From: an uncultured Bacteroidota bacterium
Lineage (GTDB): Bacteria > Bacteroidota > Bacteroidia > Bacteroidales > UBA12481
Assembly: GCA_903851365.1 (NCBI GenBank)
Contig: CAINOB010000064.1
Location: 1 to 64,000, forward strand
Direction of reading: 5' to 3'
DNA length: 64,000 nt
In this document: positions 16,702 through 45,989 of the stretch, piece by piece
How the letters are laid out: every line of letters begins with the position of its first letter
Numbering within the stretch: the stretch's first letter is position 1
Program-made: the position numbers and the translations under genes
Notes under the pieces: generated by a model
What the model was told of the DNA's origin: nothing
Seen by the model: the letters and a program-made list of their open reading frames with translations, nothing else
Databases searched by the model: none

Positions 16702-19700
16702 CTACTCTCTAATAACCTTTTGAACACCAATGTATTTACTATCCCTGAAAAAACGGATAAAGTAAATCCCTTTTGCCCAGACCGCTGTATTAAGGACAAT
16801 TAAATTGTTTTCGGGCTGTGATAATTCCTCAATCGCCTGATTCAGAACATTCACCACCTGAATCGTGCTGGCAGGCTGCGACAATTCTATAGTCAACCTT
16901 TCGGTAAACGGATTAGGATAAGCCTTGATACTCTCAAACCACAATTTATCATCAATTCTGGTATCAATACTTACCGTGATATAATAATCAGTGGTTGATC
17001 CATCTTCGGCCTCAACAGTATAGGTAACCATTTTGGAAAAGTCGTTTGGCGTTGTTCCGCTCACTTGCTGCACCAAACCCACAAAGGCTTTAGCTTCGGG
17101 TGACAAACTAAAATATCCCACCAGCGATGTGAAAGAAGTTCCGGCAGGAACCTTCACGAAAATGTCGGAGCCCACTATTTGTCCTACGGCTGGAGGATTG
17201 ATATCATCAAAACTAAAGGAAAGGATGGATTTTAATTGACTGGCATCGTTTACAATGCTGAAATCCACACTCGCTGTTGAAATATTTCCATGAATATCAA
17301 CAGCATAAGCCCTGTAATTTCCGGCAAACAGTTGGTAAGTACTGATTTGAATATCAGTATTTGCCTTTGAGACGGCAGCTTTCTGACCTTTATGAGCGCC
17401 AACAGCGGCTTCAAGCTGCTGCAGCGTATACCTCGCAACCCCCTCCAGTATCAGATAAATGGTACCGCTGTTTTCGGAACTCTGAGCTAAAATAAAATTC
17501 GACGGAGCATTGGATATTGATTGCGGCCGCATAAAAACATCCGGAGCTAAAACATCCATAACCGTGATCGAGTTAATCCCGGGCAGAGATTTATTTCCAG
17601 GTCCATCAATGGCAAATGTCAGATATAACCCTTGCTCCAGAGTATAAGTTGAAATATCGATATCAGTATTTGCCTTCGTAACCGTAGCCGACCTGCCAGA
17701 ACCGGCAACAACCGCTCTCTCAAGATCCGCTACTGTTTCATGTGGTACGTCGCTCCGAATGAGGTAAACTTTTCCAGTCGCCTCATTACTCTGAAGTACG
17801 GCAAACTGACCGGTATCATTAGTCAGCAGCTGCGACTCATTTATTACGATAGGAGGTACCGTATCAGGCAAAACATTTACAATAACGGTATAAGCGACAG
17901 AAGAACCATTTTGGGCAACAACATGATAAATTACCGGATAGGTATAATCATTAACATTTACACCGCTGATTTGAGTCCCCTTTCCATCAATATTCACGCT
18001 CGACAACGGTGAATTCTCAAAAGTTGCCCTCAGCGAACTGATGTCGGTACCATCAAACACGACGATGGTGATTACCTTCGATATTTCATCAATTTCACCT
18101 ACACTGATCGGGTCGAGATCCTCAAAGGCAAAATAGGTAATAGCTTTCTCGGAGCTACCTGATTCATTGGTTACCGATACAATATACTCATTGATCAAAC
18201 CACTTTCCGAAGTGCACCGGTATACCACAGGAAAGCTGAAATCATTGGTTGTTAAACCGCTATTCTGGGCAATTCCATCGATACTCACTGCCGAAAAAAG
18301 CGAATTTGTGAAAATGGCAGTCAAGGAGCTATGCGCCGAACCAAATGGTAGAACCACGTGGATGGTCCTTGCTGTTTGATCGATCGTGCAGGCAACCAGT
18401 GATATTTCACTAAAACTGAACGAAGTAATCTGATTTCCACTTAATGCTGCACTTTTCAGAACAATGACCTGATAATCCTGGGTTGAATAATCCTCAGCCT
18501 TAACAGTATAAGTGCGCATATAATTAAAATCATTGGCTGTATTTCCAGACAATTGATAAGAATCTCCAATCCAAACGGTGGATTTATCCGACGAAGTAAA
18601 AGTGGCAATCAAATGGGAACGACTGGCACTGAACGGAACATGAACAACAATTGTTTTTCCGATCGAATCAATCACTCCTGCTGCCGCTACCCCAAGATCA
18701 TTAAACCCAAAGGTGAGCATCTTCTTTTCCACATTGGGTCCAACAAAGACGAGTATCGAATAAATTTTAATCGAATTATCTTCAGCAATGACCGAGAATA
18801 AAACAGGGTCGGAAAAATCGTTTGGTGTAAAACCACTCACCTGGGTAGCGCCTCCAACCCTTGCAAAAGCATAAGGCGACAAACTAAATCTGGCTACCAG
18901 ACTTTTTACATTGGTTTCACCCGGAACACGCACGGTTACAGTCATCCTGGACTGATCAATGACCCCGATAGCTTCTCTTAACAATCCGTCAAATCTAAAG
19001 GTCAGGATATCTTTGCTACTGCTGGCCCGGTCATGCAAAACAGTAACAGTATAAAGATTTATTGAACCATCCTCAGCAACACATTTGTAAATCACCGGAT
19101 TGGTAAAGTCGTTCGAGGTAACTCCACTAACCTGAGGTACTGATTCAATAAACACCTTGGAGAAAGGACTGGTGACGAATGAGGCCCTCAGGGAAGTAAC
19201 ACTTTGAGAAAGAGGAACCGTCAGCCTGATTGTTTTTGCCAATGTATCAACAAGACCGATAATATCAGGATCAAATTGGGCTTCAAAATTAAAACTGAGG
19301 AAGGATTTACCAATGGCAGCGGGTGCTTTGACAACCGTTACCGCATAATTTTTAACGATACCGTTTTCAGCAGTTACGACATACGTCAGAGGCAATGTGA
19401 AATTATTCGGGGTTACTCCACTCGTCTGACCGGCATTACCGATTTTTACGGTTGACAACGGTGAGTTTGTAAAAACTGCTACCAGATTTGTGATGTCCGC
19501 AGCAAAAGGAATCACAACGCTGATAGTTCCGGTTTGTTCATTAATCACTCCAACCGAAGGTGATGACAACCCGTTAAATCTGAAATCAGTGATCTTGGCT
19601 TCACTATTTGGTGGGTCGTTGGTGACCGTGACAGTGTAGATCTGCTTATTGTTGTTCGAGGTGGTGTAATCCTGTGCAAAAACAGTGTAGGCAACTGTTG

Positions 19701-22700
19701 ATGAAAAATTATTTGCAGTGACTCCAGATGTCTGGTCGTTTGTCCCAGCCTTAACTGTTGCATTAGTCGATTTGGTAAAAGTGGCCACAAGGCTATTCCT
19801 GCTGACACTGTAAGGAACATTGACCTGAATCGTTTTGAGTGCCTCATTGATGATACCCGATACTGGAGGAGTGAGTGACTTAAATTCGAAAGAATATAAT
19901 CGCTTTTCATTATTGGGATCAACGGTAACGTTTACCGTAAAAAAGCTCTCGGAATTATCCTCAGCAACAACCCTGTAAATAACCGGCTTCGAGAAATCAT
20001 TCGGCGTTTCACCGCTGACTTGCAGGATCCCGCCAATATCAGTTCTGGCCATTGGAGAAAGACCAAAAGAGGCTACGAGATAGGTAATATCTGTTCCAAA
20101 AGGAACATGAATCTTTACTGTCGAAGCAACATAATCGATGGCACCTATTGAGACAGAATTAGCCAGATTGAAGCGGAAATCAAGAATATTCCTGGCATTG
20201 CTTGCCGGAGAATGGGTTACAATTACGGTATAAAGTTCTGTTGAGCCATCCTCAGCGCGACACGAATAGGTTAAAGGATAAGAAAAATTATTTGGGGTTA
20301 CTCCACTTTGCTGAAGCGTGGACGCAAAGTAAAGTGAAGCTGACCGACTACAGGTAAAAGAGGGAATCAATCCGGTAACATCGCAGGAATAAGGAACAAT
20401 CAATAGAATTGTTTTGGCAGAATTATCGATGGTTCCAGTAATTGGCGGATTGAACTGGGTTTCAAAATTGAAAGTCAGAATGGTATTCCCTGTTGCTGCA
20501 GCGTCCCTGTTAACGATTATTGAATAGTTTTTTGTCTGCCCATTTTCTGCGGTAACCACATAAATGACCGGCGAGGAAAATTGGTTGATGGTTGTTCCGC
20601 TCATCTGTAAAACCGATCCCACTTTTACCGTTGACAATGGGGAGTTCGTAAAAGTTGCCGGTAATGCATTAATATCTGCCGACCAGGGAATAGTCACGAT
20701 TATAGTTCCTGCAACTTCATCAATGGTTCCGATGGCATCTGCAGCTAATCCATTAAACCTGAAATCAGTAATTTGTTTAGCTGAACTAACCGGATCGCGC
20801 ACAACATTAACTGAATAATTCTGGGAGCTGCCATCTTCAGCAAAAACCCGGTAGTTCAATCCATAAGTAAAGTTATTGGCAGTCTGGCCTGATATCTGAA
20901 CCGTATCTCCCACCTTAACTGTAGCAAGGTAGGATGCTGTAAACGATGCTTGCAATGCTGTCACACTGGTACTGAAGGGCACATGAACAGTGATTTGATG
21001 GGTCTGCTGATCTACTATCCCTTCCGATGGAGGGATAAGACCCTGGAAAGAAAATGATTCTAAAATGTGTTCTGTCCTTACCGGGTCCCTCACAATATTA
21101 ATATAGTAATACCGGATGGATCCATTCTCCGCCCGGATAGAGTAGGTAACCGGAGAAGTAAAGTTGTTGGCAGTTAAACCGCTTGTTTGCAATACACCGC
21201 CAATAAAGGCCTTGGCCAGCGGTGAAATGGTAAAACTGGCAACCAATCCATTTACCGATTGGCTCACAGGCAGATGCAGGGTTACAGAATAGGAATCCTG
21301 ATCGATAACGCCAATAACATCCGGCTCCAGATCATTAAACCGGAAAGTGAGCAGGCTATTCAGCGTTATGGCCTCAGCATGTGATACTGTAACAATATAA
21401 GTTGCTACAGATCCGTCCTCTGCACGGCAATAATAGGTTACAGGTCCGGTGAAATTATTAGGTGTGGTGCCGCTTACCTGGTGCGTCGATCCAACCAGTA
21501 CGGAGGAATACGGGCTGCTCGTAAAGGAAGCGACCAGCGACGAAGCATCCTGCGAATAAGGAATGACCAGATGTATTGTCCTGACTGTTTCATCAATCAC
21601 CCCGGTAATATCAGGATCAAACTGTGATTCAAAATTAAAACTTAGAATGGCATTCCCTTTGGCTGCCGGCCCTTTAACCACCCTCACAAAATAGTTCCGG
21701 CTTGTGCCGTTCTGCGCAGTGACAGTATAATAAACAATGGTACTGAAATCATTAATCGTTTGACCACTGACTTGTACCACCGCACCAATCTTGACAACCG
21801 AGAATTGAGAACTGGAGAAACTTGCAACCAGATGGGTGATATCGGCCCCCCATGGTATGGTTATCAGGATTGATCCGGTAGTTTCATTAATCGTGCCAAT
21901 GGCTGGTGCCGATAAACCGTTAAACCTAAAATCGGAAAATTGATTGGCTGAGCTGGCTGCCTGGACAGTAGCTGTTACCGTATAGTCAACATAAGTATCA
22001 TCCTCAGCGATAACCCGATATTTCACTGGATTGGTAAAATCATTCACTGAGGTACCACTGGTCTGGCGGGTAGTTCCGATTTTGACCCTTGAGATCATCG
22101 AGGTTGTTTCGAATGAAGCAACAAGATTGCTCAAAACAGTTCCGAAAGGCAACACGGCGGTTATCTTCCGCGAGCTTTCATCAATTACACAACCAACATG
22201 CGGATTTAATCCGTTAAAGCTAAAGGATACTATTTGCTTCTTGTTCTCCTTTGGATTATTGGTAACAGTAACTGTATAGGTGGTTACTGTGCCATCAGAG
22301 GCTAAAAGCTGATAGATTTTGGCATTTGTGAAGTCATTGATTGTAACCCCTGAAGTTTGCCCAATACCGCCAATAAAAGAGCTTGTATTGGGGGTTAAGG
22401 AATAGGTTGCAATCATTACAGTTCTGGGTGCTGAATAGGGAATATTAACCTGGATAGTATGCGCAACGTCATTGATGATTCCGTAGGAAACACAATTAAC
22501 AGGATCTCCTCCGATGCTAAACGAGGATGTCAGGGAGAAGCTAAGAAACCGCTTCTCCATCTCATTACTTCCGTACAAATGACTCCCGGCTTCAGCCTTG
22601 ACTGAAATCGAAGTGAGACAGCAAACCAGAGTGATCAGTAAGACCGATGCCGGCCTATTGATACTTAAAACAGCAGACCTCCAAAATTTAATAGGGCTTA

Positions 22701-22707
22701 CTATCAA
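16702..22707 (-). CDS. giant secreted repeat protein (17 beta-sandwich repeats, T9SS type A C-terminus)
   Basis: 2001 residues. An N-terminal export signal (about 14-38) is followed by 16 repeats of about 96 residues (about 51-1600), two Ig-like units that contain KANTDI..STY (about 1600-1815), a 17th repeat and a T9SS type A sorting domain that starts at AYPNPF and ends in GVQKVIRE. The repeat pattern is F-x-F-x-x-L...G-x-I-D...VPF...L-x-A-x-F...SG-x-T-x-N-D-F...Y-x-V-x-A-E-D-G-S...Y-x-V-x-V, which matches what I know as DUF5018-like or cadherin-like sandwiches. Repeats 3-6, 7-10 and 11-14 are three copies of one four-repeat supermodule. Likely exported through the T9SS and surface-anchored or released; an adhesive or scaffold role is a guess. 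Lies 12 bases after its paralog, so the two form an operon. Confidence 0.85.
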   Translation of the reverse strand: MIVSPIKFWRSAVLSINRPASVLLITLVCCLTSISVKAEAGSHLYGSNEMEKRFLSFSLTSSFSIGGDPVNCVSYGIINDVAHTIQVNIPYSAPRTVMIATYSLTPNTSSFIGGIGQTSGVTINDFTNAKIYQLLASDGTVTTYTVTVTNNPKENKKQIVSFSFNGLNPHVGCVIDESSRKITAVLPFGTVLSNLVASFETTSMISRVKIGTTRQTSGTSVNDFTNPVKYRVIAEDDTYVDYTVTATVQAASSANQFSDFRFNGLSAPAIGTINETTGSILITIPWGADITHLVASFSSSQFSVVKIGAVVQVSGQTINDFSTIVYYTVTAQNGTSRNYFVRVVKGPAAKGNAILSFNFESQFDPDITGVIDETVRTIHLVIPYSQDASSLVASFTSSPYSSVLVGSTHQVSGTTPNNFTGPVTYYCRAEDGSVATYIVTVSHAEAITLNSLLTFRFNDLEPDVIGVIDQDSYSVTLHLPVSQSVNGLVASFTISPLAKAFIGGVLQTSGLTANNFTSPVTYSIRAENGSIRYYYINIVRDPVRTEHILESFSFQGLIPPSEGIVDQQTHQITVHVPFSTSVTALQASFTASYLATVKVGDTVQISGQTANNFTYGLNYRVFAEDGSSQNYSVNVVRDPVSSAKQITDFRFNGLAADAIGTIDEVAGTIIVTIPWSADINALPATFTNSPLSTVKVGSVLQMSGTTINQFSSPVIYVVTAENGQTKNYSIIVNRDAAATGNTILTFNFETQFNPPITGTIDNSAKTILLIVPYSCDVTGLIPSFTCSRSASLYFASTLQQSGVTPNNFSYPLTYSCRAEDGSTELYTVIVTHSPASNARNILDFRFNLANSVSIGAIDYVASTVKIHVPFGTDITYLVASFGLSPMARTDIGGILQVSGETPNDFSKPVIYRVVAEDNSESFFTVNVTVDPNNEKRLYSFEFKSLTPPVSGIINEALKTIQVNVPYSVSRNSLVATFTKSTNATVKAGTNDQTSGVTANNFSSTVAYTVFAQDYTTSNNNKQIYTVTVTNDPPNSEAKITDFRFNGLSSPSVGVINEQTGTISVVIPFAADITNLVAVFTNSPLSTVKIGNAGQTSGVTPNNFTLPLTYVVTAENGIVKNYAVTVVKAPAAIGKSFLSFNFEAQFDPDIIGLVDTLAKTIRLTVPLSQSVTSLRASFVTSPFSKVFIESVPQVSGVTSNDFTNPVIYKCVAEDGSINLYTVTVLHDRASSSKDILTFRFDGLLREAIGVIDQSRMTVTVRVPGETNVKSLVARFSLSPYAFARVGGATQVSGFTPNDFSDPVLFSVIAEDNSIKIYSILVFVGPNVEKKMLTFGFNDLGVAAAGVIDSIGKTIVVHVPFSASRSHLIATFTSSDKSTVWIGDSYQLSGNTANDFNYMRTYTVKAEDYSTQDYQVIVLKSAALSGNQITSFSFSEISLVACTIDQTARTIHVVLPFGSAHSSLTAIFTNSLFSAVSIDGIAQNSGLTTNDFSFPVVYRCTSESGLINEYIVSVTNESGSSEKAITYFAFEDLDPISVGEIDEISKVITIVVFDGTDISSLRATFENSPLSSVNIDGKGTQISGVNVNDYTYPVIYHVVAQNGSSVAYTVIVNVLPDTVPPIVINESQLLTNDTGQFAVLQSNEATGKVYLIRSDVPHETVADLERAVVAGSGRSATVTKANTDIDISTYTLEQGLYLTFAIDGPGNKSLPGINSITVMDVLAPDVFMRPQSISNAPSNFILAQSSENSGTIYLILEGVARYTLQQLEAAVGAHKGQKAAVSKANTDIQISTYQLFAGNYRAYAVDIHGNISTASVDFSIVNDASQLKSILSFSFDDINPPAVGQIVGSDIFVKVPAGTSFTSLVGYFSLSPEAKAFVGLVQQVSGTTPNDFSKMVTYTVEAEDGSTTDYYITVSIDTRIDDKLWFESIKAYPNPFTERLTIELSQPASTIQVVNVLNQAIEELSQPENNLIVLNTAVWAKGIYFIRFFRDSKYIGVQKVIRE
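18450..19615 (-). repeat. supermodule copy 3 (repeats 11-14) of the giant protein
   Basis: A coding unit of about 1.17 kb. Its four repeats start with ITDFRFNGL, LSFNFEAQF, ILTFRFDGL and MLTFGFNDL, the same order as in the two neighbouring copies. Boundaries are approximate and placed at the linkers between repeats. Confidence 0.65.
19616..20795 (-). repeat. supermodule copy 2 (repeats 7-10) of the giant protein
   Basis: The same four-repeat order: ITDFRFNGL, LTFNFETQF, ILDFRFNLA and LYSFEFKSL. The last repeat has a few extra residues (TTSNNNKQIY), which accounts for its slightly greater length. Confidence 0.65.
20796..21961 (-). repeat. supermodule copy 1 (repeats 3-6) of the giant protein
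   Basis: Repeats begin FSDFRFNGL, LSFNFESQF, LLTFRFNDL and LESFSFQGL. The equivalent single copy in the upstream paralog is at about 24479-25695. Confidence 0.65.
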
Positions 22708-41479: not shown

Positions 41480-42109
41480 ATGGATTCTTCAAAATACACG
41501 TCCAGACTGCTTGAGAAAGCAGTAAATGAATTTGCCAAATTACCAGGGATAGGCCGAAAAACGGCTCTGCGACTGGTTTTGCATTTGCTCAGGCAGGATG
41601 TTTCCGAATCGGAATCATTGGCCGGCAGCCTTCTGCAATTGCGAAAGGAAATACACCACTGCAAAATTTGCCACAATATCTCTGATCAGGAAATCTGCCA
41701 GGTGTGTTCAAATCCGGCCCGCGACCGGTCACAGATCTGCGTGGTTGAGAATATCCGCGACGTGATGGCTCTCGAATCAACCCAGCAATATACTGGTGTA
41801 TACCATGTTCTGGGCGGGATACTGTCGCCGATGGATGGTATCGGACCATCCAATATTTCCGTAGGGTCCCTGGCAGAGCGAGTTTCCACAGGCGATGTCC
41901 GGGAGGTGATACTGGCGCTTAGTGCGACCATGGAAGGCGATGCAACCAATTTTTTCATTTACAGGAAGTTATCGGAACATTCAGTTAAAATTACTACACT
42001 TGCACGAGGAGTAGCCATTGGCAATGAACTCGAATATACTGATGAGATTACTCTTGGCCGCTCATTGCTTAACCGTACCCTGTTTGAAGAATCCATACAC
42101 AAACCCTAA
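41480..42109 (+). CDS. recR: recombination protein RecR
   Basis: 209 residues. Helix-hairpin-helix [15 protein letters not shown], a zinc finger formed by CKIC...CQVC, and a Toprim domain with [25 protein letters not shown] (listed as consecutive short motifs) and [12 protein letters not shown]. Part of the RecFOR pathway that loads RecA at single-strand gaps. Followed after 6 bases by the large glycosyltransferase fusion, so the two may be cotranscribed despite unrelated roles. Confidence 0.96.
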
Positions 42110-42115
42110 GAATTC

Positions 42116-45001
42116 ATGAAACCTGTGAGGATTTCGGTTATCATCGTCAGCTATAACGTTAAGTTCTTTCTTGAGCAATGCATCAAGTCGGTTTACCGTG
42201 CTGCCGGAGCAATGCCGATTGAGGTTTTCGTGGTTGATAATAATTCCGCCGATGGATCCTGTGTCATGGTGAGAAACCAGTTCCCGAACGTTAAGCTGAT
42301 CGAAAACACTGAAAACACCGGATTCTCTAAGGCAAATAATCAGGCTATGCGTATCGCGGAAGGCGAATTCCAGCTCATTCTCAATCCGGATACGGTAGTC
42401 GAGGAATCCACCTTTCAGAAGATACTGGAATTCATGGATAGTCACCCCGATGCAGGGGCATTGGGAGTCAGAATGATAAATGGTAAGGGAACATTTCTTC
42501 CGGAATCAAAAAGAGCCCTTCCCACCCCATGGGTTTCCTTTTATAAGGTTTTTGGATTGTCCGCTTTGTTTCCCCGATCGCATAAATTTGGACAGTACCA
42601 CTTAGGATATCTTCCTCAGGATCAAATCAATCCAGTGGACATACTTCCGGGTGCATTTATGTTTATCCGAAAATCAGTTCTGGAAAAGACCGGTTATTTC
42701 GATGAAACTTTTTTTATGTATGGTGAGGATATAGACCTTTCATACCGCATACTTCAGGCTGGCTACAAGAACTTTTACTTTCCTGAAACCACTATTATTC
42801 ATTATAAAGGGGAGAGCACAAAGAAGTCAAGCATCAATTATGTGTTGATGTTTTATCAGGCGATGATCATTTTTGCCACTAAACATTTTACAAAAAGTAA
42901 TGCCCGCTGGTTCTCCTTTTTCATCCATCTGTCCGTGTATTTCAGAGCAGGAATCTCTCTTTTGCGCAGGGTAGCAAAACGGATGTTCCTTCCGCTCGCC
43001 GATGCTGCAATTTCCTTTCTGGGGTTCCTTTTGATAAACCCTACCTGGGAAGCAATAAAATTCCCCGGCGGCGGTCATCATCCGCCTGAATTTTTAACCT
43101 TCTTTGTCCCGGCATACATAGTCATCTGGCTTTTAGCGATTTATTTTTCCGGAGGATACGATCTTCCGGTAAAATTAGTGCGCATACTCAGAGGGATTAT
43201 TTATGGTACCGCCATGATATTGGTGGTTTATTCATTGCTTCCTGAAGAGTACAGGTTTTCCCGAGCCCTGATTATTATGGGTTCAGCATGGACCTTGGCC
43301 GGAATTTTCCTCATCAGAATACTTCTTCATTTCGCCGGAGCTCATGGATACAGGCTCGATATCGGCAAACGTAAAAAGCTGGTTATTGTAGGCAGGCCGG
43401 ATGAAGCCGACCGGGTAAGCCGCATCATCGACCAGTCGAGTCAGCCCGTTGAAATATTCGGATATGTGGCTCCTGATCAGGCAATTGAATCAGGAAAATA
43501 CCTTGGCTCGGTTGTTCAGTTAAACGACATCATCAGGATTAACCATATTGATGAAGTAATATTTTGCTCAAAAGATTTAAGCACTAATGAAATCATAAAA
43601 TATATGCTGGCTCTCAGTTCATTGGAAACCGAATATAAAATTGCTCCGGATGCTGCCGAATCCATCATCGGAAGTAATTCCGCCAATACAGCCGGTGACC
43701 TGTATGTTATTCCCATCAATTCAGTTGGTGAGCCCAATAACCGTCGGATCAAAAGAGTTTTCGATGTCTTGGTTTCCTTACTTCTTCTGGTTACATCACC
43801 CATCGCGGTATGGTTTTTCCTGCCCCGACCATGGCTTATGCTATGGAACTGTATATTAGTACTATCCGGAGCTCGGAGCTGGGTGGGTTATGCGCAAACC
43901 GGTATACACTCGGGATATAATCTACCACCGTTGAGAAAAGGGATACTGAATCCCGAAAATGGTTCTGATACAGTCGATTATAATGCTCAAACCTGGCTGG
44001 ATATCAACTTGCATTATGCCCGGGATTATCGGTTAATGAAAGATTTTCGTATTCTAACAACGGGGTACCGTACTATTGCTCAAAAAGGGAAGAAGATTTT
44101 GCTCTCATTGGTCATCATGATGGCAACGCTTTCAATCGAAGGCCAGGACTTCAAGGACCAGATAAACATGATCAGGCCGGCACCGGAAAATTGCCTTGTT
44201 TACGGGGTCGTATCGCAGCAAAACAGTGAATTGCTGCCTGATGTGAAAATAAGCCTTATCTATAAAACAACCCATGAGATTTCCGAAGTTATCAGGACTG
44301 ACCGGAACGCCTGGTACCTATTTTCAGCAAAAAGAGGGCAGCCCTATGGACTGCTCATCGAAAAGAGTGGCTATTTCCCCTATTATACGGAGAATGCCAT
44401 TCCGATGGATCAGGCTGATAATAAATTGGAAAGAAATATCGTGTTGCCGGATGACCTGAAAAACGATTTCACTTTGTATTATCCTGCCTCGGACACAAAT
44501 CTTGGTGAAAAAAGTAAAGCACTTGTAGCTCAATTGTCCAGGTTATTAAATAAGCAGCGCACTCTCACCGCATGGTTCGATCCCCAGGGCGATTCATTGG
44601 ATTTTGCAAGGATCAACGGACTTACCATAACTTTTTTGAAAGATGGCATTCCAATTTCCAGACTCTGGTCCGGCGCTAAACCTGATTCAACTGAAACTTT
44701 CATCAGGATAGAAATAAACACCGGGGCCGAAAATGCGGTTCTGATGCAAGCTCCGGAAAAGGACCAGCCGGATAATGATTCCTGGACCATACAGTTTGCC
44801 GCCTCAAAAACCCCTTTGGATAAAAAATCATTCAAGAGCCTGGATCCGGTTCATGAATTTAAAGGGAGAGATGGCTTTTACAGATATGCCTTTGGCACCT
44901 TTAAATCTCAGACTGAGGCGAATAAAAAGCTTCAGATGGTGAAAAAGAAGGGATTTAATCAGGCATTTGCAAAATCGGTGGGCTCAATCAAGAAGCTCTA
45001 A
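42116..45001 (+). CDS. GT2 glycosyltransferase - degenerate polyprenyl-phosphate sugar transferase - SPOR fusion protein
   Basis: 961 residues with three parts. (1) About 1-250: a GT2 (rhamnosyltransferase-like) domain with VSYNVKFFLEQC, DNNSADGS, the nucleotide-sugar NPD (90-92) and GEDIDLSYR. (2) About 290-660: four membrane segments (about 293-310, 325-345, 355-375, 385-405), a Rossmann-like domain (KKLVIVGRPDEADRV at 420), then RRIKRVFDVLVSLLLLVTSP (543-562), the start of a Bac_transf sugar transferase. This jumps straight to LWNCILVLSGARSWVGY, so the catalytic stretch with FRSM and the Asp-Glu pair is absent. (3) About 660-961: a signal-like segment ILLSLVIMMATLSIEG, a carboxypeptidase-regulatory-like region and a C-terminal SPOR-like domain (about 888-955). 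No frameshift or stop interrupts it. Likely inner-membrane, with a cytosolic GT2 and the SPOR end in the periplasm. Confidence 0.8.
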   Translation: MKPVRISVIIVSYNVKFFLEQCIKSVYRAAGAMPIEVFVVDNNSADGSCVMVRNQFPNVKLIENTENTGFSKANNQAMRIAEGEFQLILNPDTVVEESTFQKILEFMDSHPDAGALGVRMINGKGTFLPESKRALPTPWVSFYKVFGLSALFPRSHKFGQYHLGYLPQDQINPVDILPGAFMFIRKSVLEKTGYFDETFFMYGEDIDLSYRILQAGYKNFYFPETTIIHYKGESTKKSSINYVLMFYQAMIIFATKHFTKSNARWFSFFIHLSVYFRAGISLLRRVAKRMFLPLADAAISFLGFLLINPTWEAIKFPGGGHHPPEFLTFFVPAYIVIWLLAIYFSGGYDLPVKLVRILRGIIYGTAMILVVYSLLPEEYRFSRALIIMGSAWTLAGIFLIRILLHFAGAHGYRLDIGKRKKLVIVGRPDEADRVSRIIDQSSQPVEIFGYVAPDQAIESGKYLGSVVQLNDIIRINHIDEVIFCSKDLSTNEIIKYMLALSSLETEYKIAPDAAESIIGSNSANTAGDLYVIPINSVGEPNNRRIKRVFDVLVSLLLLVTSPIAVWFFLPRPWLMLWNCILVLSGARSWVGYAQTGIHSGYNLPPLRKGILNPENGSDTVDYNAQTWLDINLHYARDYRLMKDFRILTTGYRTIAQKGKKILLSLVIMMATLSIEGQDFKDQINMIRPAPENCLVYGVVSQQNSELLPDVKISLIYKTTHEISEVIRTDRNAWYLFSAKRGQPYGLLIEKSGYFPYYTENAIPMDQADNKLERNIVLPDDLKNDFTLYYPASDTNLGEKSKALVAQLSRLLNKQRTLTAWFDPQGDSLDFARINGLTITFLKDGIPISRLWSGAKPDSTETFIRIEINTGAENAVLMQAPEKDQPDNDSWTIQFAASKTPLDKKSFKSLDPVHEFKGRDGFYRYAFGTFKSQTEANKKLQMVKKKGFNQAFAKSVGSIKKL

Positions 45002-45006
45002 ATTAC

Positions 45007-45582
45007 ATGGAACCACTAAAAGGAAACAGGATCAGGCTTAGGGCCATTGAACCCGAAGATGAAGATCTCCTGTTCAAATGGGAAAATGATCAGAGTATCT
45101 GGCAGGTGAGCAATACTCTTGCACCATTTTCAAGGAAAATATTAAGAGAATACCTTGCTCAGGCGCATCTTGATATTTTTCAAGCCCGCCAGCTCAGGCT
45201 GGTTATCGAAACATTGGAAGAATCCATGCCGGTTGGGCTGATCGATTTATTCGATTTCGACCCCCATAACCAGAGGGCTGGAATCGGTATTCTCATCGGC
45301 GAATCAGCAGAATGGGGAAAAGGATATGCCAAGGACGGATTGAAGACTTTATTGAATTATGTTTTTAAAGTCCTGCTGCTTAATCAAGTATACTGCTCCA
45401 TTGATGAATCGAACATTGCCAGTCTCAACCTGTTTAAGAACGCAGGTTTCAGAATTACCGGAATAAAAGAAAAATGGAACCGGAGTTTTGCGGGCTGGTC
45501 AAATGAATGGTTCCTTCAGATCACATCGGATGACTGGTCGGCAAAAGAAAGGAAAGAAGGAATTTCTTTAAGAAATTCATAA
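45007..45582 (+). CDS. GNAT family N-acetyltransferase (RimJ/RimL-like)
   Basis: 191 residues. A GNAT fold with RLRAIEPEDEDLLFKWEND at the start, IGILIGESAEWGKGYAKDGL (acetyl-CoA loop) and SCSIDESNIASLNLFKNAGF-like motif order (here YCSIDESNIASLNLFKNAGF). It probably acetylates a small molecule or a protein N-terminus in the cytosol; the substrate cannot be told. Its last 67 bases overlap the convergent nuclease-domain gene. Confidence 0.9.
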   Translation: MEPLKGNRIRLRAIEPEDEDLLFKWENDQSIWQVSNTLAPFSRKILREYLAQAHLDIFQARQLRLVIETLEESMPVGLIDLFDFDPHNQRAGIGILIGESAEWGKGYAKDGLKTLLNYVFKVLLLNQVYCSIDESNIASLNLFKNAGFRITGIKEKWNRSFAGWSNEWFLQITSDDWSAKERKEGISLRNS

Positions 45583-45989
45583 GTTGATGCTTCGGGATCC
45601 ATCCTGATGCAAAAATGTGTCAGCCCATTGGTCACCAAAAGTATTTTTACCCCAAGAACCATGTTGTACCGGGCAATCTGATCAAAGGTTTTCTGATTAA
45701 GGACAACTTCAGGCGCTTTGCATTCAACGAGGACGATAGGTTCAGCTTTTCGGTTAAAAACGACGATATCACATCTGCGGGTCAATGTATTATGGGTAAT
45801 GGACCCTTCAAGCAGGAGTAAGCTTTCAGGGTAACCGAGACCTTCGCACAGATACCTGGCAAAATTCTGACGCACCCATTCTTCCGGGGTAAGAAGGTAC
45901 CAGTTCCTCCTAAAAATATCAAAAATCCACTGCCGCTCTTCCCGGGATTTTAAATTGAATGAATAAGTTGGTAAATTTAACCGCTGCAT
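45516..45989 (-). CDS. solitary HsdR N-terminal-type nuclease domain protein
   Basis: 157 residues, a stand-alone copy of the domain found at the start of type I restriction R subunits (HSDR_N_2 type). PD-(D/E)XK elements: Asp74 in RRCDIVVFN, Glu89 and Lys91 in VLVECKAPE, preceded by an EEWVRQNFARYL helix with a possible Glu (36/37). No helicase, HsdM or HsdS gene is nearby, so this is not a restriction locus. The role is unknown; a nuclease or a DNA-binding remnant are both possible. Overlaps the GNAT gene tail to tail by 67 bases. Confidence 0.85.
   Translation of the reverse strand: MQRLNLPTYSFNLKSREERQWIFDIFRRNWYLLTPEEWVRQNFARYLCEGLGYPESLLLLEGSITHNTLTRRCDIVVFNRKAEPIVLVECKAPEVVLNQKTFDQIARYNMVLGVKILLVTNGLTHFCIRMDPEASTYEFLKEIPSFLSFADQSSDVI

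Follow-up and report, generated by a model that had tools for sequence, protein, structure and literature searches.

The locus described here raises two questions: whether a frame that joins a glycosyltransferase, a sugar-phosphate transferase (PGT) scaffold and a SPOR-containing end is a genuine gene, and what such a scaffold could do when its active site is missing. The window, a 64,000-nucleotide stretch of DNA from an uncultured member of the Bacteroidales, was analysed using domain searches, structure prediction and comparison with relatives from across the phylum Bacteroidota.

The fused frame and its authenticity

Positions 42116-45001 (+) form a single 961-aa frame with no internal stops, in which a GT2 domain is followed by a WbaP/WcaJ-type large PGT (Lg-PGT) scaffold without its catalytic core and then by a SPOR-containing end. 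The original prediction of one uninterrupted 961-residue frame made up of a GT2, a PGT scaffold and a SPOR-like end was borne out by the ORF list and domain searches. The features of the frame and of the genes on either side of it are as follows.

41480..42109, +, recR, 6 bp upstream of the fused frame, a conserved neighbour in Bacteroidia (ORF list, relatives' loci)
42116..45001, +, whole fused frame, 961 aa; a same-length frame (963 aa) is present in four other assemblies (L026-L029)
42128..42850, +, GT2 glycosyltransferase domain (aa 5-245) with intact NPD and GED motifs (PF00535/PF13641; 44-68% identity across the phylum)
42959..43336, +, four-helix transmembrane bundle (aa 282-407; hydropathy, AlphaFold helices, WbaP match)
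43370..43645, +, Rossmann-like CoA_binding_3 / Lg-PGT DUF domain (about aa 419-510; PF13727, Foldseek to 3nkl and 8t53)
43661..43723, +, conserved IIGSNSxNTAGDLYxI beta-hairpin-like segment (aa 516-536; family alignment, low local pLDDT)
43736..44080, +, PGT remnant (aa 541-655) with membrane hairpin, WxxxLVLSGxxSWVGY, LPxLRKGIL and C-terminal helix (alignments, L107 same-locus comparison)
44090..44143, +, retained signal peptide of the fused downstream gene (aa 659-676), cleavage-like motif SIEG|QD (hydropathy, sequence inspection)
44189..44446, +, carboxypeptidase-regulatory / transthyretin-like domain (aa 692-777; PF13620 sub-threshold, Foldseek 5aq0 TMt 0.76)
44465..44722, +, beta-alpha-beta-alpha-beta domain reminiscent of OmpA C-terminal (aa 784-869), no Pfam match (model secondary structure)
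44783..44995, +, SPOR-like domain (aa 890-960; PF05036, beta-alpha-beta-beta-alpha-beta order at low confidence, weak 1x60 match)
45007..45582, +, GNAT-like acetyltransferase, named from sequence alone, 5 bp downstream, a conserved neighbour (ORF list, relatives' loci)

The genome of the window is a multi-contig assembly split over 130 contigs, which leaves some room for an assembly or sequencing artefact that joined separate genes, and an assembly join near 44090 had been named beforehand as a point to check. However, independent assemblies carry full-length fused relatives with 69-80% identity over the PGT/SPOR part, L026-L029 have the full frame, and L011 also has the C-terminal fusion. The same core deletion is seen in 37 aligned relatives across the phylum. 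Chance or assembly error was ruled out by the deletion in these 37 relatives together with the full-length frame in the four other species, and the likelihood of an artefact is considered negligible. The deletion join itself is located at approximately 43830, and not at 44090, which is close to the GT/SPOR gene-fusion point.

The GT2 domain was matched by PF00535 at aa 7-156 (E 7.2e-24) and by PF13641 at aa 5-238, and the motifs LNPDT and GEDIDLSYRI were read in the window sequence. The window protein therefore combines a PF00535 match with the NPD/DXD and catalytic acid motifs by which GT2 membership is recognised, in agreement with the earlier claim that the domain has an intact NPD. Its score against the rhamnosyltransferase-like model TIGR01556 was far below the cut-off.

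Within Bacteroidia, members of the family to which this gene belongs, here called GT2-pseudo-PGT, are mostly found directly after recR, an adjacency that says little about function. A 157-aa HSDR_N (PF13588) protein is encoded at 45516-45989 (-); its gene converges on the GNAT-like gene, the 3' end of which it overlaps, and this placement is conserved in relatives. Elsewhere in the window, the 2001-aa protein encoded at 16702-22707 (-) carries a C-terminal sorting domain for type IX secretion (PF18962).

The PGT scaffold and its missing core

TIGR03025 (polyprenyl glycosylphosphotransferase, NCBIfam) matched aa 295-565 with an E value of 1e-21, ending where the catalytic core should start, and CoA_binding_3 (PF13727, Pfam) matched aa 357-484. 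The AlphaFold model of the module contains four TM helices, a Rossmann-like domain, a membrane hairpin and C-terminal helices (pLDDT 70.6, pTM 0.49). Its best PDB match was WbaP 8T53 (Foldseek, E 4.5e-9), with a loose superposition (TM 0.31, rmsd 16 A), and sequence profile searches of the module also retrieved WbaP and PglC-type entries. A four-TM bundle and a CoA_binding_3/DUF domain ahead of the membrane hairpin, the layout of an Lg-PGT scaffold, are thus indicated by TIGR03025, PF13727, the AlphaFold helices and Foldseek 8T53. A structural check against PglC/WcaJ-type transferases had been proposed; the model matches WbaP best, the profiles match WbaP and PglC-type entries, and alignment confirms the loss of the core. 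In WbaP, the dimer is formed by the TM bundle and the DUF hairpin (PMC10942596), and the aa 516-536 segment probably sits where this hairpin does.

The deletion was mapped by alignment with nine intact large PGTs, one of which (L068) is from the window's own genome. Approximately 55-60 residues (SxGPxxYxQxRVGxxGKxFxxxKFRSM...DExPQ) are gone between FFLPRPW and LWNCILVL, with the join at about 43823-43843, and a further 10-20 residues (PRPERPxFVxxLxxEIPxYKRR) are gone after SWVGY, at about 43892 in the PGT remnant; the two losses match the earlier estimate of 60-100 missing active-site residues. PF02397 (Bac_transf, Pfam), which a monotopic PGT should match over its full length, gave no match in the window protein. 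KFRxM, DExPQ and VGPRP were absent in 40 of 40 long members scanned across the phylum (two rows being the same protein), and the catalytic Asp-Glu dyad and KFRxM of monotopic PGTs are accordingly missing from both the alignment and these members. In favour of PGT activity persisting through a rearranged active site stand distant members such as L107, in which the C-terminal half of PF02397 is recognisable; L107 matches positions 96-178 of 179 only, against 1-178 for the intact PGT of that locus. However, every long member tested is without the KFRSM segment, the PRP loop and the region of the Asp-Glu dyad, and residual activity of this kind is regarded as extremely improbable.

The architecture had been put forward as one without a known described counterpart, but a GT2 followed by a core-deleted PGT occurs across the phylum; what is local is the SPOR extension. 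Of 296 genomes sampled from across the phylum, 208 carry a GT2 orthologue (E 1e-50 or better); among the matches listed, about four in five lie in frames of 610-760 aa, the rest being mostly 370-430 aa. In the same order, 149 of 198 genomes gave a match at E 1e-60, with most frames about 620-760 aa. A tree of the module, read as unrooted, placed pseudo and intact PGTs on the two sides of one 100/100 branch, as would be expected if the catalytic core was lost a single time in an ancestor of the family. No paper describing the GT2-pseudo-PGT family was found in the openly licensed literature, nor one on a pseudo-PGT, nor a relevant one on a GT2 fused to an inactive PGT in Bacteroidetes.

Ten sampled short orthologues (L123-L132, 318-405 aa) consist of the GT2 and mostly a Rossmann stub, with neither TM helices nor a PGT remnant, and nine of the ten form one group within Bacteroidia (support 95/87). 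These short forms appear to represent a further stage of domain erosion in some lineages. Within the genus, pN/pS was 0.09 for the GT2, 0.15 for the TM and Rossmann regions, 0.25 for the PGT remnant, 0.20 for the SPOR part, 0.20-0.26 for the C-terminal domains and 0.52 for the linker plus signal peptide. These values indicate purifying selection on every domain, with the strongest constraint on the GT2. It is possible, if not the expected explanation, that the PGT module is a decaying leftover and passive membrane anchor and that the GT2 is the sole working part. The graded series from 610-760 aa to 318-405 aa with a Rossmann stub only, the grouping of the short forms, and the drop in constraint from GT2 to PGT remnant would all fit such decay. 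However, the full module, with an invariant residue set, is kept in nearly all sampled non-Bacteroidia families and in most of the order, the remnant is still under purifying selection, and an intact Lg-PGT nearby in seven loci suggests a linked role.

These seven loci belong to deep-branching classes (L104, L106-L111), in which the intact Lg-PGT is located 2-3 genes from the GT2-pseudo-PGT gene on the same strand. A small GT2, polyprenol-phosphate mannose synthase-like by sequence (Pfam: GT2 only), adjoins and is followed by accA; glycosyltransferases are present, and several of the loci also hold a Polysacc_synt-type flippase. The presence of the intact Lg-PGT, small GT2 and flippase nearby ties GT2-pseudo-PGT to lipid-linked glycan assembly. 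No intact PGT was adjacent to GT2-pseudo-PGT in the Bacteroidia loci examined, and partnership with one is putative there. In L109, gene 12 (827 aa, G251:C17), located upstream of GT2-pseudo-PGT, is an apparent fusion of a MraY/WecA-like polytopic PGT, a half judged by sequence, with an intact large monotopic PGT that retains KFRSM, DEVPQ and VGPRP.

The C-terminal SPOR part

PF05036 matched aa 905-951 with 19.6 bits in the whole protein and 22.3 bits when the C-terminal piece was searched alone (cut-off 21); three unfused orthologues scored 23.4-28.5 bits and two scored 19.8 and 20.7 against the same cut-off. The model of the SPOR region shows the beta-alpha-beta-beta-alpha-beta order with a pLDDT of only about 40-69. 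The C-terminal model has an overall pLDDT of 72, and its transthyretin-like regulatory domain matches 5aq0. An OmpA C-terminal identity for aa 784-869 was considered and rejected, the likeness being one of secondary-structure order only, and Pfam OmpA gave no match up to E 1 in the fusion or in five unfused orthologues.

Searches with aa 665-961 gave orthologues aligned over most of this length in genomes of the window's own family only, and the SPOR part is absent from most members of the wider GT2-pseudo-PGT family. In L030, L013, L014 and L016 the SPOR gene is separate, downstream, and starts with a signal peptide. In L018 (G005:C147), from the same genus as the window, the stop of GT2-pseudo-PGT and the ATG of the SPOR gene overlap as ATGA (L018:2409-2412), apparently an intermediate towards fusion, and in six species the two are fused. 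From this comparison the SPOR end is the product of a neighbouring gene, fused in frame recently and locally in the window's group.

All six fusions retain the signal peptide, whose hydrophobic core spans about 13-16 residues. The cleavage-like motifs (SIEG|QD, YASG|QD, YAKS|QD, HAES|QD, YSQG|QD and GGWS|QD) have a small residue (G or S) at -1 and a small or aliphatic residue at -3, and are followed by QD. A separate internal start for the SPOR part was rejected as a shared route: no start codon is conserved among the fusions, and one of them, L028, lacks any in-frame ATG, GTG or TTG from the end of the GT part up to the hydrophobic segment, so that separate initiation is probably not a route common to them. 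With the motif judged by eye, the C-terminal part is probably exported and cut off by signal peptidase; alternatively, it may remain as a membrane-anchored periplasmic tail.

The original prediction was that the SPOR end could direct the protein to denuded septal peptidoglycan, in which case the fusion would stay whole and SPOR would keep the glycosyltransferase there. A SPOR-containing end is present, the fusion is retained in six species, its SPOR part is under purifying selection, the topology would put SPOR in the periplasm, and L028 speaks against internal initiation. Septal targeting is nevertheless weakened by the origin of this end, as unfused orthologues encode a SPOR protein with its own signal peptide, and retention of that peptide with an acceptable signal-peptidase motif in all six fusions makes cleavage as likely as septal targeting. 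The Pfam SPOR score is borderline, peptidoglycan binding is putative, and the wider family mostly lacks the SPOR part; an intact fusion held at the septum is thought improbable.

Proposed role and comparison with known systems

The reading that we favour, with moderate confidence, is that of a GT2 of undecaprenyl-PP-glycan assembly joined to a non-catalytic PGT docking/dimerisation module and to a recently fused, probably processed periplasmic protein. The GT2 would add a sugar from a nucleotide-sugar to a presumed substrate, an undecaprenyl-pyrophosphate-linked glycan, at the inner membrane face. The Lg-PGT module, with its core probably lost once in the family ancestor, is predicted to keep the four-helix bundle, Rossmann-like DUF, hairpin segment, re-entrant membrane helix and C-terminal helices, and may act as a membrane-docking and dimerisation platform that would pair either with itself or with an intact Lg-PGT responsible for the first lipid-PP-sugar. 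In the window's genus, the downstream gene for a Sec-exported protein with carboxypeptidase-regulatory-like and SPOR domains has been fused in frame, and the retained signal peptide would still export the fused part, which signal peptidase probably cuts free. The earlier idea of a non-catalytic scaffold that recruits or positions lipid-linked sugars seems reasonable, since the core is absent and the remnant is under purifying selection. Counted against the favoured reading are the short orthologues without TM helices and PGT remnant, in whose lineages the module is dispensable.

It is doubtful that, throughout the phylum, the core-deleted module heterodimerises with an active Lg-PGT and passes new undecaprenyl-PP-sugar straight to the attached GT2. 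The synthesis machinery of the conserved core of Bacteroidota O-glycans is stated to be unidentified (PMC12871550). A role of GT2-pseudo-PGT in serving this core is speculative, as many Bacteroidia genomes have no match to the GT2 at E 1e-50.

A glycosyltransferase family of most Bacteroidota thus carries a sugar-phosphate transferase module whose active site appears to have been lost a single time, the module itself being retained thereafter. Database labels derived from its scaffold (exopolysaccharide polyprenyl glycosylphosphotransferase) would be misleading. If the module does dock an active PGT, it would offer a genetic handle on the hand-over of lipid-linked sugars between membrane enzymes. 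In the gene pair, the joining of a membrane enzyme to an exported protein can also be followed step by step, from gap to ATGA overlap to fusion with the signal peptide retained, and the pair is a direct test case for bacterial polyprotein processing.

Bacterial fused precursors split by signal peptidase are known, for example the Bradyrhizobium FbcH cytochrome b/c1, although no paper on this precedent was found in the openly licensed literature. As in FbcH, a single frame encodes a membrane protein, an internal signal peptide and then an exported protein; cleavage of the window protein, in contrast, is predicted from its motif. With Bacteroidota SPOR periplasmic proteins that have a carboxypeptidase-regulatory-like domain, the C-terminal part shares a signal peptide, the regulatory-like domain and a candidate C-terminal SPOR domain, but it is fused behind a cytoplasmic-membrane glycosyltransferase in six species and separate in five other family members. 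The intact GT-A fold motifs NPD and GED are common to the window protein and the GT2s of polysaccharide assembly (PF00535), whereas the window protein additionally bears a PGT-derived module. That module has in common with large monotopic PGTs (WbaP, WcaJ; TIGR03025/TIGR03022/TIGR03023) the four-helix bundle, Rossmann-like DUF (CoA_binding_3), hairpin-like segment, KRxxD membrane hairpin, WxxVLxG...VG segment and C-terminal helices, but differs from them in being preceded by a GT2 domain and in lacking the KFRSM-to-DExPQ core and the PRP segment.
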